Source: Pseudomonadota bacterium
GTDB lineage: Bacteria; Desulfobacterota; Binatia; Binatales; Binataceae
Direction: 5' to 3'
DNA: 64,000 bases
Assembly (NCBI GenBank): GCA_021324855.1
Contig: JAJPIG010000035.1
Span: 1 to 64,000, forward strand
Below, in pieces: positions 29,250-33,471 of this stretch (position 1 is the stretch's first letter; the number at the start of each line of letters is the position of its first letter). A program made the translations under genes and the position numbers. The notes under the pieces were generated by a model. The model saw only the letters and a program-made list of their open reading frames with translations, had not been told where the DNA came from and made no database searches.

Positions 29250-30767
29250 ATGGCCCAGGGATTCGACACTGTGCTCCGAGGCGGGTGTGTAATCGACCCC
29301 GCTCAGTCGATCAACGGTATCAACGACGTTGCGATCAAGGACGGCAGGATCGCCGCGATCGGAAAAGAACTCGATACCAGCGGCGCCGAGGTTATCAATG
29401 TCGCGGGCTCGATAGTCACGCCGGGCCTGGTCGATATCCACGTCCACGCTTACGGCATGCTGGGGTTCGCGTGGCCGGACCGGGTCGGGATTACGCAGGG
29501 CGTCACGACCTTCGTCGAGCCCGGCGGCCCGGGCGTCATATCGTATCCCGAGTACCGGGCGCTGACTCGCGGCGCGTTGATCACCAACCTCTATTGCGGT
29601 GCCTACATCAGCCCGACGGGCATCAGCGGCATCGAGGTCGTCGATGGCGACATCCGCGAGCTGGTTGATATTCCGATCGCTGAGTGGATCGATCTCGTCG
29701 AAGCGAACCGCGACGACATCCGTTATCTCAAGGTTGGAGCGTTCTCGAATTACGGCGCCGGTGTGGTGAAGCTCGGCAAGGGGATGGCGGACATCCTCGG
29801 GCTGCCGCTCTATATCCACATCGGCGATTTCATGAAGAGCTACAAGACCACCACGACGCCGACCGCCTTCAACATGGCGGAAAAGGGCGACATGGTGACG
29901 CACATCTATCATTCGAACCCCGGGAGCATCCTGGAGGACGACGGCCGAGTGCGTCCCGAGGTCTACGCGGCCGAGAAGCGCGGCGTGCTTTTCGATATCG
30001 GATACGGCGCGTACAACTTCAGCTTCGTGACGGCGGAAAAGGCGCTGCCGCAGGGCATCGTCCCGCATATCATCAGCTCCGATTTGCAGCAGGTGAACGT
30101 CACGGGGCCGTGCTACTCGCTCGCCAACGTGATGTCGATTTTCCTGAAGCTGGGGCTCACGCCCGAGCAGATCATCGAGCGCGTGACGATCAACGCGGCT
30201 CGCTCAGTCGGCTTGGAAGATCGGCATGGTACGCTGCACGTCGGACGCGCGGCGGACATCACGGTCCTTAAGATCGAAGAGGGCGACTTCGAGTTTGCCG
30301 ACACGCAGGGCAACAAGCGCAAAGGTAATCAGCGCTTCATGCCGACGATGGTCTTCAAGGACGGCCGCCGCCATCCGATCGATATGGAGATCGCGCAGGA
30401 ATATAACAACTGGTGCATGGACGTCGCGACCGACCATATCCCGGAAGCGGCCATGCGACTGAGCCCGATCCAGAAGGATTTCATCGGCGCGCTGGCCCGC
30501 GCGATTGACGACGTGCGCTGGGAGGCGAAGGAGTTCAACACTGTCTATGTCAGCATGCCGACGGCGATCGAATTGCATCGTCGCTTCCAGGCCACACAGC
30601 GGGCGGTTGGGCTTCCGCTCAAGGATGCGCTGCTTGCCCTGATGGCGTGCATGTTCGATTCGCCGTTCACCTATCAGTCGGGCGTGGTGATCGCGCGCCA
30701 GCCGCGCGAGTTCATTATGGAGCGCCTGGCTGCGGTGGCCAACGGCCACGCGCAGGCGGCGGCCTGA
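29250..30767 (+). CDS. Amidohydrolase-superfamily metal-dependent hydrolase with long C-terminal extension
   Basis: 505 residues. The opening DTVLRGGCVIDPAQSINGIN and the metal motif PGLVDIHVHAYG (HxH) are those of dihydroorotase/deacetylase-like amidohydrolases; VTHIYHSNPG supplies another His and HIISSDLQQVN the catalytic Asp. The catalytic part ends near residue 365 (GTLHVGRAADITVLKIEEGD). About 130 further residues follow (for example LSPIQKDFIGALARAIDDVR) that are not part of the usual fold. ATG 29250 has a strong AGGAGGTG 8 nt upstream. The substrate, a cyclic amide or N-acyl compound, is not known. A Rieske protein gene follows 24 nt later. Confidence 0.9.
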   Translation: MAQGFDTVLRGGCVIDPAQSINGINDVAIKDGRIAAIGKELDTSGAEVINVAGSIVTPGLVDIHVHAYGMLGFAWPDRVGITQGVTTFVEPGGPGVISYPEYRALTRGALITNLYCGAYISPTGISGIEVVDGDIRELVDIPIAEWIDLVEANRDDIRYLKVGAFSNYGAGVVKLGKGMADILGLPLYIHIGDFMKSYKTTTTPTAFNMAEKGDMVTHIYHSNPGSILEDDGRVRPEVYAAEKRGVLFDIGYGAYNFSFVTAEKALPQGIVPHIISSDLQQVNVTGPCYSLANVMSIFLKLGLTPEQIIERVTINAARSVGLEDRHGTLHVGRAADITVLKIEEGDFEFADTQGNKRKGNQRFMPTMVFKDGRRHPIDMEIAQEYNNWCMDVATDHIPEAAMRLSPIQKDFIGALARAIDDVRWEAKEFNTVYVSMPTAIELHRRFQATQRAVGLPLKDALLALMACMFDSPFTYQSGVVIARQPREFIMERLAAVANGHAQAAA

Positions 30768-30791: not shown

Positions 30792-31109
30792 ATGGCTGAA
30801 TCCGACTGGATTGTGATCGAGGGCGTCAACCCGGCGACCGCTCAGTACCCGCTGGGCGTCGCTGCCGGCGGAGAGGAGATTCTGATTTTCCGCGTCGGCG
30901 CAAAGCTCTGCGGCATCCAGCGCATCTGCCCGCACCAGGAAGCCGACCTTGAGGGCGGCAAGGTCATGGGCGAGATGCTCAAATGCCCGCATCATGGATA
31001 CATCTTTCGCTTCGACACAGGCCGTTGCCTTAATTTTCCCGGCGTCAACGCCGATGTATACGAGGTCTCGACCGATAACGACACGCTGCGCGTACGCCGC
31101 CGCACGTGA
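30792..31109 (+). CDS. Rieske [2Fe-2S] protein, soluble ferredoxin type
   Basis: 105-residue stand-alone Rieske domain. The two cluster-binding boxes are present with correct spacing: C46-P-H48 in RICPHQEADLEGG and C65-P-H-H68 in LKCPHHGYIFRFDTGRCLNF. Length matches Rieske ferredoxins (about 105 residues) that deliver electrons to oxygenases or assist other redox enzymes. It is 24 nt after the amidohydrolase gene and 34 nt before the rhodanese-like selenoprotein gene. No oxygenase is adjacent. Confidence 0.95.
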   Translation: MAESDWIVIEGVNPATAQYPLGVAAGGEEILIFRVGAKLCGIQRICPHQEADLEGGKVMGEMLKCPHHGYIFRFDTGRCLNFPGVNADVYEVSTDNDTLRVRRRT

Positions 31110-31143: not shown

Positions 31144-31650
31144 ATGTTTACGAATCCGAACTTGATGATGAAGTGGAAGCAGGCAATAGTCGCGGGATTC
31201 GCGGTGCTGATCGGGATCGCGTTGATGCCGGTCCCGCCGGTGCGCGCGCTCAGCCTGTCTTCGCTTATCGGTAATAGTTCCGAACCTGACAACATCAAGA
31301 AGATTCACGTCGCCGAACTCGTCGCCCTGATGCACAATCCCAGGGCGCACGTCGTCATCTATGATGCGAATCTGAATGACGTGCGGGCAAAATACGGGAT
31401 CATACCCGGCGCGCGGCTGCTGAGTTCAGCCGACGGATACGATCTCTCTGAACTGCCGGCGGACAAGCATGCGAAGCTGGTCTTTTACTGCACCAACCTG
31501 CATTGAATGGCTTCCGATGAAGCCGCCCGGCGGGCGGCAAAGGCCGGTTACTCGGACCTCTTCGAAATGAAAGACGGCATCGTGGGATGGGACGCCGCAG
31601 GCGAGCCGCATGTGCCCCTCGCCTCCTACAAATCGGCATCCGCCGATTGA
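31144..31650 (+). CDS. Exported rhodanese-like selenoprotein
   Basis: Probable 168-residue protein read through an in-frame TGA at 31504-31506 as selenocysteine 121. Before the UGA is a signal peptide (MMKWKQAIVAGFAVLIGIAL then MPVPPVRALS) and the first half of a rhodanese domain ending AKLVFYCTNLH. After it the same frame continues UMASDEAARRAAKAGYSDLF then EMKDGIVGWDAAGEP, exactly the second half (AA...GY...M..GI.GW..AG.P). The normal rhodanese Cys corresponds to C116, and U121 sits five residues later, where many relatives have a second Cys. A hairpin at 31522-31538 looks like a SECIS. Starts at 31144, 31165 or 31168 are all possible; the last two give the most compact signal peptide. A periplasmic sulfur or selenium transfer/redox role is inferred. 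Confidence 0.82.
31522..31538 (+). promoter_or_regulatory. Bacterial SECIS-like hairpin (rhodanese-like selenoprotein)
   Basis: GCCGCCC (31522-31528) pairs perfectly with GGGCGGC (31532-31538) around loop GGC. The loop starts 22 nt after the UGA and begins with G. The geometry (7-bp stem, 3-nt loop, G first) is the same as the hairpin at 514-530, though the bases differ completely. Confidence 0.68.
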
Positions 31651-31665
31651 GTCTTCCCGATCCTG

Positions 31666-33471
31666 TTGCGTGTGAGCGTTGAGCCCCGCCGCGAGACGCC
31701 CGCACGTGTGACTTTGCGCGAGACCACTCCGCGCGCGCTTCTCCTCGGTGTCCTGCTCGCGCTGATTCTCGGCGCAGCCAACGCGTACCTCGGCCTTTTC
31801 GCAGGGATGACGGTCTCCGCCAGCATCCCGGCGGCCGTCATCTCGATGGCGATCCTGCGCGCGCTTGGCGGCGCGACGATACTAGAGAACAATCTCGTGC
31901 AAACAGTGGCATCGGCGGGCGAGGCGGTCGCGGCCGGCGCGATCTTCACTTTTCCGGCGCTGGTCATCATGGGATATCGCGGCGCGCTCTCGTACTGGCA
32001 CATCACGATCCTGTGCCTGGTGGGCAGTACGATGGGCAGTTGGCTGATCGTTTTCATGCGCCGCGCGTACATCGTCGAGGAGCATCTGCCGTTTCCCGAA
32101 GGGGTTGCATGTGCCGAGGTGCTGCGCGCGGGCGAGGCGGCCGGTCGCGCGAAGCCGCTCTTGTGGGGCGGGATCATCGCGGCTAGCGTCAAGGCGGCAC
32201 AGGATGTGATCGGTTTCGCGCCGCGTGCGGTCGCGGGGGCGCGATGGTTCGCGGGCGGCGCATTTGCAGCCAGCTTCAATCTTTCCGGTGCGCTGCTTGG
32301 CGTCGGCTATATCGTCGGGTTTCGTATCGCAGCGCTGGTCTTCGCCGGCGGCGCGCTGGCGAATCTGATCGCGATTCCGATCGCAACCGCGATGTATCCG
32401 GAGCTGCATCGGCTGACGGCTGGCGATGCGGCGCATCAAATCTGGAGCAACCAGACAAGATATCTCGGCGTGGGCGCGATGCTGGTCGGCGGCCTTACGA
32501 CCATCTGGCGACTTCGCACGCGAATCGGGCGCGCTGTTAGCGAGAGCGTTGCTATTATTCGCGGCGCGTCACACCCCGTGGTCGTGCCGCGCGAAGAGAC
32601 CGATGTCTCGACGTCGACCGTCCTGGGCGCGGTGGCGCTTTGTGTCCCGGCCCTGTTTGCGATCGCATGGTTGCTTTCGGGGCGCGTCTGGCTCGCCGTC
32701 ATCCTTGCGATCGTTCTGGTGATCCTGAGCTTTTTCGGCTCGGCGATTGCCGGCTACCTGACCGGGCTGGTGGGGGCATCGAACAATCCGATCTCAGGCG
32801 TCACCGTTATCGTGTTACTCGGCGTAGCGATGCTTCTAAAGCTCCTCGGACTCGACTCGGCGGACGGCGCGCGGCTCGCGATCATGACCGGGGCGGTGAT
32901 CTGCGTGGCAGCCGCGATGGCCGGCGACTCGCTCCACGATCTGGCTACCGGCTATCACGTCGGGGCAACGCCGCGCGCGCTCGAGATCGGCGTGCTGATC
33001 GGCGCGATCGCATCGTCGTTCGTGATGGCGCCCGTGCTAAACGTGCTGATCGACGGTTACGGAATCGCTGGAGCTGCGCACGCCGGACCCGGCGCGCTCC
33101 CCGCCCCGCAAGCTTTCCTGATAGCCGGGGTGGCGCGGGGCGTGTTCGGCTCCAATCTTCCCTGGACGATGATCGGAACGGGCGCGGCGTTGGCGATCGC
33201 CGTAGCGGCCATCGATCGATGGCTCGAATCGAGCGGACGGAGACTGCGCCTGCCGGTGATGCCGCTTGCGTTGGGACTTTATCTGCCGTTTGGCCTCGGT
33301 ATAACGATCATGATTGGTTCGCTTGCGAATCTTTTCCACCCACGCGAAGACCGAGAAGGCGGGAACGTCGGATTACTTTTTGCCGCCGGGCTGGTCGCCG
33401 GCGAAGCATTGATGGGCGTGGCGAACGGCGCGCTGGTTACGATTGGCGCGCGATTACCCGTGATCAGATGA
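31666..33471 (+). CDS. OPT-family oligopeptide transporter
   Basis: About 600-residue membrane protein with some 14-16 hydrophobic helices. Family features are GAANAYLGLFAGMTVSASIP in the first helices, ENNLVQTVASAGEAVAAGAI, LPFPEGVACAEVLRAGE and, near the C terminus, MPLALGLYLPFGLGITIMIG. OPT carriers import peptides, and some bacterial or plant members move metal chelates. There is no ATG at the start; TTG 31666 or GTG 31672 is used, 15-21 nt after the selenoprotein stop, suggesting the same transcript. Confidence 0.9.
   Translation: MRVSVEPRRETPARVTLRETTPRALLLGVLLALILGAANAYLGLFAGMTVSASIPAAVISMAILRALGGATILENNLVQTVASAGEAVAAGAIFTFPALVIMGYRGALSYWHITILCLVGSTMGSWLIVFMRRAYIVEEHLPFPEGVACAEVLRAGEAAGRAKPLLWGGIIAASVKAAQDVIGFAPRAVAGARWFAGGAFAASFNLSGALLGVGYIVGFRIAALVFAGGALANLIAIPIATAMYPELHRLTAGDAAHQIWSNQTRYLGVGAMLVGGLTTIWRLRTRIGRAVSESVAIIRGASHPVVVPREETDVSTSTVLGAVALCVPALFAIAWLLSGRVWLAVILAIVLVILSFFGSAIAGYLTGLVGASNNPISGVTVIVLLGVAMLLKLLGLDSADGARLAIMTGAVICVAAAMAGDSLHDLATGYHVGATPRALEIGVLIGAIASSFVMAPVLNVLIDGYGIAGAAHAGPGALPAPQAFLIAGVARGVFGSNLPWTMIGTGAALAIAVAAIDRWLESSGRRLRLPVMPLALGLYLPFGLGITIMIGSLANLFHPREDREGGNVGLLFAAGLVAGEALMGVANGALVTIGARLPVIR

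Follow-up and report, generated by a model that had tools for sequence, protein, structure and literature searches.

The locus at positions 31144-31650 (plus strand) of the window, by which we mean the whole stretch of 64,000 nucleotides analysed, raises the question of whether a rhodanese-like gene seemingly broken by a stop codon is a remnant or an intact selenoprotein gene. The in-frame TGA at 31504-31506 is codon 121 of this frame, which runs on to a stop codon of its own, also TGA, at 31648-31650, giving a protein of 168 residues when the internal UGA is read as selenocysteine (Sec121). An earlier note, made from the sequence alone, had claimed that rhodanese halves lie on both sides of the TGA in one frame to 31650, and this was confirmed: the read-through translation scored 30.7 bits against PF00581 (Rhodanese; curated cut-off 22.2) over residues 57-151 (31312-31596), and the match, profile positions 3-101 of 102, covers the whole domain and spans both halves. 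The N-terminus resembles a signal peptide (probable residues 1-35, 31144-31248), with KWK followed by a hydrophobic stretch and a cleavage-like VRA-LS; the layout is similar in the relatives L063 and L034, and the three proteins have [VA]RA-[LF]S in common. An alternative start is possible at Met8/Met9. As read from these features, export of the protein is plausible. The frame is thus confirmed as one rhodanese domain, probably exported, that is split in frame by a UGA, and the gene is most likely intact and encodes an exported selenium-containing protein that handles sulfur.

The earlier note had regarded absence of the Sec machinery as fatal to its proposal. All of the components by which we recognise a genome with bacterial selenoproteins, namely SelA, SelB, SelD and tRNA-Sec, are present in the genome to which the window belongs (3.75 Mb, 96% complete). 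SelA scored 579.1 bits (cut-off 267.9), SelB 369.6 bits (cut-off 242.25) and SelD 392.2 bits (cut-off 125), and the top tRNA-Sec match reported by ARAGORN was a tRNA-SeC with anticodon tca. SelD of this genome itself holds one TGA, at its CKAAGU site. SelB was above the cut-off in 37 of the 41 genomes of the same family, and among the 23 with a UGA rhodanese only G412 gave no SelB match at E 1e-80. This assembly, which carries its UGA rhodanese at L125, consists of about 530 contigs and is 85% complete.

With regard to the UGA codon itself, 26 of the 41 family genomes matched the window rhodanese (E 1e-8) at 29 places, 24 of which contain one TGA, and the matches span codon 121 at 45-63% identity, apart from a weak match of 37% in G432. 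The codon five positions after the catalytic cysteine (C+5) is UGA in 23 of the 26 genomes. A copy with Cys at this place was found in five genomes, either in tandem with a UGA copy (G121, G418 and G420) or alone (G284 and G419), so that an in-frame UGA is aligned with Cys in homologues, as is characteristic of bacterial selenoproteins. The motif filter of this first count demanded Sec or Cys at C+5, and the count was repeated unfiltered; the best matches at the 29 loci (several per genome) then had U in 26 cases, Cys in two and Glu in one (L134, in G432). The homologue alignment proposed in the earlier note thus gave Sec or Cys at residue 121 in 25 of the 26 family genomes (a UGA copy in 23, Cys alone in two). 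The note had also held that a sense codon other than Cys in related genomes would speak against a selenoprotein; such a codon, for Glu, does occur in G432, but in a rhodanese of a different type, with a CxU frame. The tandem Sec and Cys rhodaneses (L115/L135, L034/L136 and L126/L137) are followed by an OPT gene in all three genomes, which belong to one genus, and they offer a natural comparison of what selenium contributes.

A similar picture was obtained in the wider phylum, where 70 of 395 genomes matched at E 1e-5. Of 35 loci (the best 30 places and five further loci, each represented by its best match), 19 had Sec at residue 121, 12 had Cys, three had Gly and one had a gap, which amounts to Sec or Cys at C+5 in 31; the four loci with Gly or a gap resemble ordinary rhodaneses. 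Residue 116 (codon 31489-31491), the position of the catalytic cysteine of rhodaneses, was Cys in all 35. When the window gene was compared with its Sec relatives L063, L064, L034 and L036, pN/pS was 0.29, 0.41, 0.49 and 0.53 before the TGA and 0.32, 0.25, 0.34 and 0.36 after it, respectively, and was thus lower downstream than upstream in three of the four pairs; these values come from uncorrected proportions at far diverged sites (pS 0.50-0.69). In plasmids the window rhodanese gave one match, in Deinococcus taeanensis (38.1% identity, E 3e-6). Two Sec rhodanese domains, L054 and L055, lie near each other in one genome, each with a separate UGA and hairpin.

A hairpin of 7 bp with the apical loop GGC (31522-31538, plus strand) starts 15 nt past the UGA. 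The bSECIS model demands a loop of 3-9 nt, a stem of 4-16 bp, a G at the first or second loop position and a distance of 16-37 nt from the UGA, and, as far as the available part of that source specifies, the window hairpin agrees with it in loop, stem and a UGA-to-loop distance of 22 nt (PMC13188914). Folding of the single sequence did not set the hairpin region apart from its shuffles (z -0.5 to -1.3). Compensatory changes were examined against 500 shuffles in 140 cells, drawn from a phylum set of 21 Sec sequences in which two stretches are identical, leaving 20 distinct ones. Pairing was found in 90.7% of the cells compared to 77.0% in the shuffles, both sides had changed in 16 cells compared to 4.7, and the covariation score was 0.367 compared to 0.139, none of these values being reached by any of the 500 shuffles. 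Two other measures were unexceptional, namely the number of pairs changed on both sides (3 vs 2.4, equalled or exceeded by 221 of 500 shuffles) and that of further pair types (8 vs 6.3, equalled or exceeded by 48 of 500). Only 26-68% of cells paired when the hairpin frame was slid along the sequence, and RNAalifold recovered the same hairpin.

Synonymous resampling of the 21 phylum Sec sequences gave 133 of 147 cells paired (z 8.0, reached by 0 of 2000 trials), whereas the control of three Cys sequences, out of 20 Cys domains in the wider locus set, gave 16 of 21 (z 0.8, reached by 668 of 2000). In the family, where identical 45-nt stretches were counted once, 148 of 154 cells were paired among the 22 distinct Sec sequences (z 7.6, a level that none of 2000 resamplings reached), and 30 of 35 among the five Cys copies (z 2.4, reached by 42 of 2000). 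It should be underlined that pairing alone is weak evidence in the family set because the AARRA peptide favours pairing. Codon usage gave a sharper result than pairing: in the Sec copies the synonymous codon difference at hairpin codons 6-10 was 0.15 of pairs compared to 0.47-0.60 elsewhere in the gene, while in the five distinct Cys copies it was 0.40 at the hairpin codons and 0.30-0.40 elsewhere. The synonymous codons of the hairpin are thus frozen in the UGA copies, which is not seen in the Cys copies.

These results bear on two explanations that dispense with Sec. That the source organism decodes UGA as an amino acid other than Sec, for which we found no support, is rejected by the TGA with which the window gene, like many of its Sec relatives, itself ends, by the Sec machinery (tRNA-Sec, SelA, SelB and SelD) of the genome and by the residue aligned in the family, which is Sec/UGA or Cys in all but one of the 26 genomes, and may be set aside as exceedingly improbable. 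One TGA in a lone genome would look just the same if the TGA were a real stop, or a sequencing error, with the second half of a pseudogene decaying behind it; but 23 family genomes share the TGA at this codon, and purifying selection acts on the downstream half, which also carries the covarying hairpin; together these observations refute this explanation and leave it a negligible probability. The reading of the frame as a selenoprotein in the earlier note is supported, and what looks like a broken gene in environmental genomes is most likely a conserved selenoprotein gene.

The AlphaFold2 model, built with 34 sequences, had a mean pLDDT of 82.6 and a pTM of 0.68; residues 51-160 form a block with pLDDT 93-97, and the N-terminus is weak. 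The predicted fold is that of a rhodanese, as for a member of PF00581: the model superimposed on GlpE (1gmx) with Z 14.7 and an rmsd of 2.1 over 106 aligned residues, and Foldseek returned 45 matches at E 0.001. Among the matches was 1qxn, a polysulfide-sulfur transferase from Wolinella, which Foldseek listed at E 4.7e-4 and which VIA superimposed with Z 12.3 and an rmsd of 4.5 on 111 residues. In the alignment of 34 sequences Cys116 is invariant and its spacing to Gly135 is 19 in all of them, compared to 17 in the protein of contig C22 and in canonical rhodaneses, for instance L083, 18 in YgaP and 19 in the CxU protein of contig C9 (see below for both contigs). Judged from this spacing, the segment that holds Sec121 exceeds that of the canonical rhodaneses compared by two residues, and the extra residues would be located in the active-site loop. 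We found no matching paper on the chemistry of this loop in the open-licence literature searched.

The earlier note had stated that rhodanese-related selenoproteins are reported, and such proteins are indeed already catalogued: the available part of the catalogue gives five forms, with the motifs UxxS, UxxG, CxU, UxxG and UxxxxU, the first being a rhodanese-like domain-containing selenoprotein (PF00581, UxxS, WP_010941598.1) (PMC13188914). As far as this entry goes, the window gene resembles the first form in having PF00581, one Sec and a UxxS motif (U-M-A-S), and the two are probably of the same type, an equation made by motif. WP_010941598.1 is presumably a Geobacter protein. In the family of Geobacter argillaceus, where matches at 1e-4 came from 11 of 13 genomes, the best matches at 20 loci had Cys at C+5 in 12 cases, Gly in three and Glu in five, and no CxxxxU rhodanese was found among the 20. 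One of the five Glu loci is a CxU frame with a UGA; the other four lack the catalytic Cys and lie in proteins that have a CxxxxC domain as well. The 12 loci with Cys at C+5 read CxxS there, so that a Sec version would read UxxS, which backs the equation with the first form without proving it.

The best match among the NCBIfam models was TsoB, the fifth form (NF045694, UxxxxU), to which residues 104-156 align at model positions 104-156, from which we infer that Sec121 probably corresponds to the second U of the UxxxxU motif. Membership was rejected at 39.7 bits (cut-off 805): the TsoB model has 572 positions and a name like that of a rhodanese/DsbD fusion, whereas the window protein is a single domain of 168 residues, and its motif is CxxxxU, with Cys at the first position. 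It shares with the third form (LYCAU, NF041203, CxU) the combination of Sec and a retained catalytic Cys, but was rejected as a member at 27.8 bits (cut-off 115), its Sec being at +5 and not at +2. PQQ_CXXCW (TIGR03865) was likewise rejected (32.8 bits, cut-off 128.05). The classical single-domain rhodaneses GlpE, PspE and YgaP have the fold and the position of the Cys in common with the window protein. In YgaP the aligned segment is one residue shorter than in the window protein and offers neither Cys nor Sec at the equivalent of position 121, and the same presumably applies to GlpE and PspE with regard to Cys or Sec at this place. The motif CxxxxU did not occur in any of the papers listed by a search of one open-licence collection. 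The window gene is a new example of a catalogued kind of protein, and its novelty is modest.

Upstream of the gene, on the same strand, lie a Rieske [2Fe-2S] ferredoxin (30792-31109) and an amidohydrolase/deacetylase-like metallohydrolase (29250-30767). Elsewhere, a Rieske homologue and a close amidohydrolase homologue were found near the gene only in a genome of the same genus (L063/L113), with weak partial amidohydrolase matches (35-39% identity) near it in L127 and L132. Downstream, the frame of an OPT family transporter (31666-33471, plus strand; TIGR00733, 497.9 bits; start of the mechanical ORF at TTG) begins 15 nt after the rhodanese gene. In 17 of the 26 matching family genomes an OPT homologue follows the rhodanese within 1.5 kb and in the same orientation; in nine it was not found within the 1.5-kb flanks, and in two of these, G284 and G304, it was not found in stretches of 19 kb around the rhodanese either. 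Glutathione is a cargo of some OPT transporters in other organisms, and a glutathione-type thiol is for this reason our guess, a weak one, at the substrate. The linkage suggests that a peptide-like thiol of this type may be processed before import, and it makes the role of a rhodanese selenoprotein approachable through the cargo of one transporter. A joint treatment of rhodanese, selenoprotein and oligopeptide transporter was not found in the open-licence literature searched.

As read from sequence, UGA conservation, the SECIS signature, the Sec machinery, the exchange of Sec and Cys, the predicted fold and the OPT linkage point to the following scheme, in which Sec insertion as such, export, the redox pair and the substrate are the parts that we infer. 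Owing to the hairpin after the UGA, SelB and Sec-tRNA(Sec) would decode codon 121, and translation would run past it to the stop at 31648. Cys116, the usual rhodanese nucleophile, would take up a sulfane sulfur or form a mixed disulfide, and Sec121 would resolve this adduct via a sulfur-selenium bond, freeing reduced sulfur or a thiol. The protein would then be a reductase of sulfane sulfur or disulfides in the periplasm and not a plain sulfurtransferase. The earlier note had likewise suggested an active pair of Cys116 and Sec121 in a transferase or reductase, and the pair and this role may well be correct. Taken together, we consider it likely that the gene encodes a selenoprotein with Cys116 as nucleophile and Sec121 as resolver, probably an exported periplasmic sulfane-sulfur/disulfide reductase that is linked to the OPT transporter.

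The main competitor is a selenoprotein that is nevertheless a true sulfur or selenium transferase, in which Cys116 carries a persulfide or perselenide and Sec121 only speeds the transfer. The rhodanese fold and the presence of the Wolinella transferase 1qxn among the structure matches are in line with this, but a plain sulfurtransferase needs no second redox residue, and 25 of the 26 family genomes and 31 of 35 wider loci retain one at C+5, as either Sec or Cys; we find the transferase unlikely. A reductase with Cys116 and Sec121 as its pair is thus preferred. An extension of the reductase reading, which we put forward as tentative and rather doubtful, is that the protein would represent a distinct periplasmic selenoenzyme class, with a lengthened segment in which Sec resolves the bond formed by Cys, operating as one unit with the OPT transporter for uptake of sulfur peptides, in genomes whose rhodaneses may carry Sec at C, C+2 and C+5.

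The genome of the window contains three rhodaneses with Sec at three different active-site positions. Besides the window gene, there is a VTT-rhodanese fusion (C22:84286; L018:4263-5231) in which UGA takes the place of the catalytic Cys codon (TIURTQKRSA) and whose top-ranking homologue elsewhere (L083 in G121; 198 genomes searched) has Cys, and a CxU rhodanese (C9:231643; L019:3623-3958) reading CTU in LYCTUNNEASS, which is nearest to NF041203 yet reaches only 70.1 bits (cut-off 115). The accessible parts of the open-licence literature searched made no mention of a downstream OPT gene, of tandem Sec and Cys copies or of Sec at three rhodanese positions. The other case that the earlier note had seen in the window, at 240-749, is an AhpD-like frame with a CMD domain and a TGA at 501 (LNCRFUGIEH, CxxU); it scored 82.3 bits against TIGR01926 (cut-off 81.8) and belongs to a type listed in the available part of the catalogue. 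All five Sec genes inspected (the three rhodaneses, SelD and the AhpD-like gene at 501) have a predicted hairpin after the UGA whose loop carries a G at its first or second position. Further CxU frames with UGA occur in L134 of G432 (VTYCTULHEATS) and in L102 of G401 (IFYCAUTDEHTA), and L087 of G119 is a rhodanese with two UGA codons (LYUTUPDEYTS), a UxU form akin to the CxU type.
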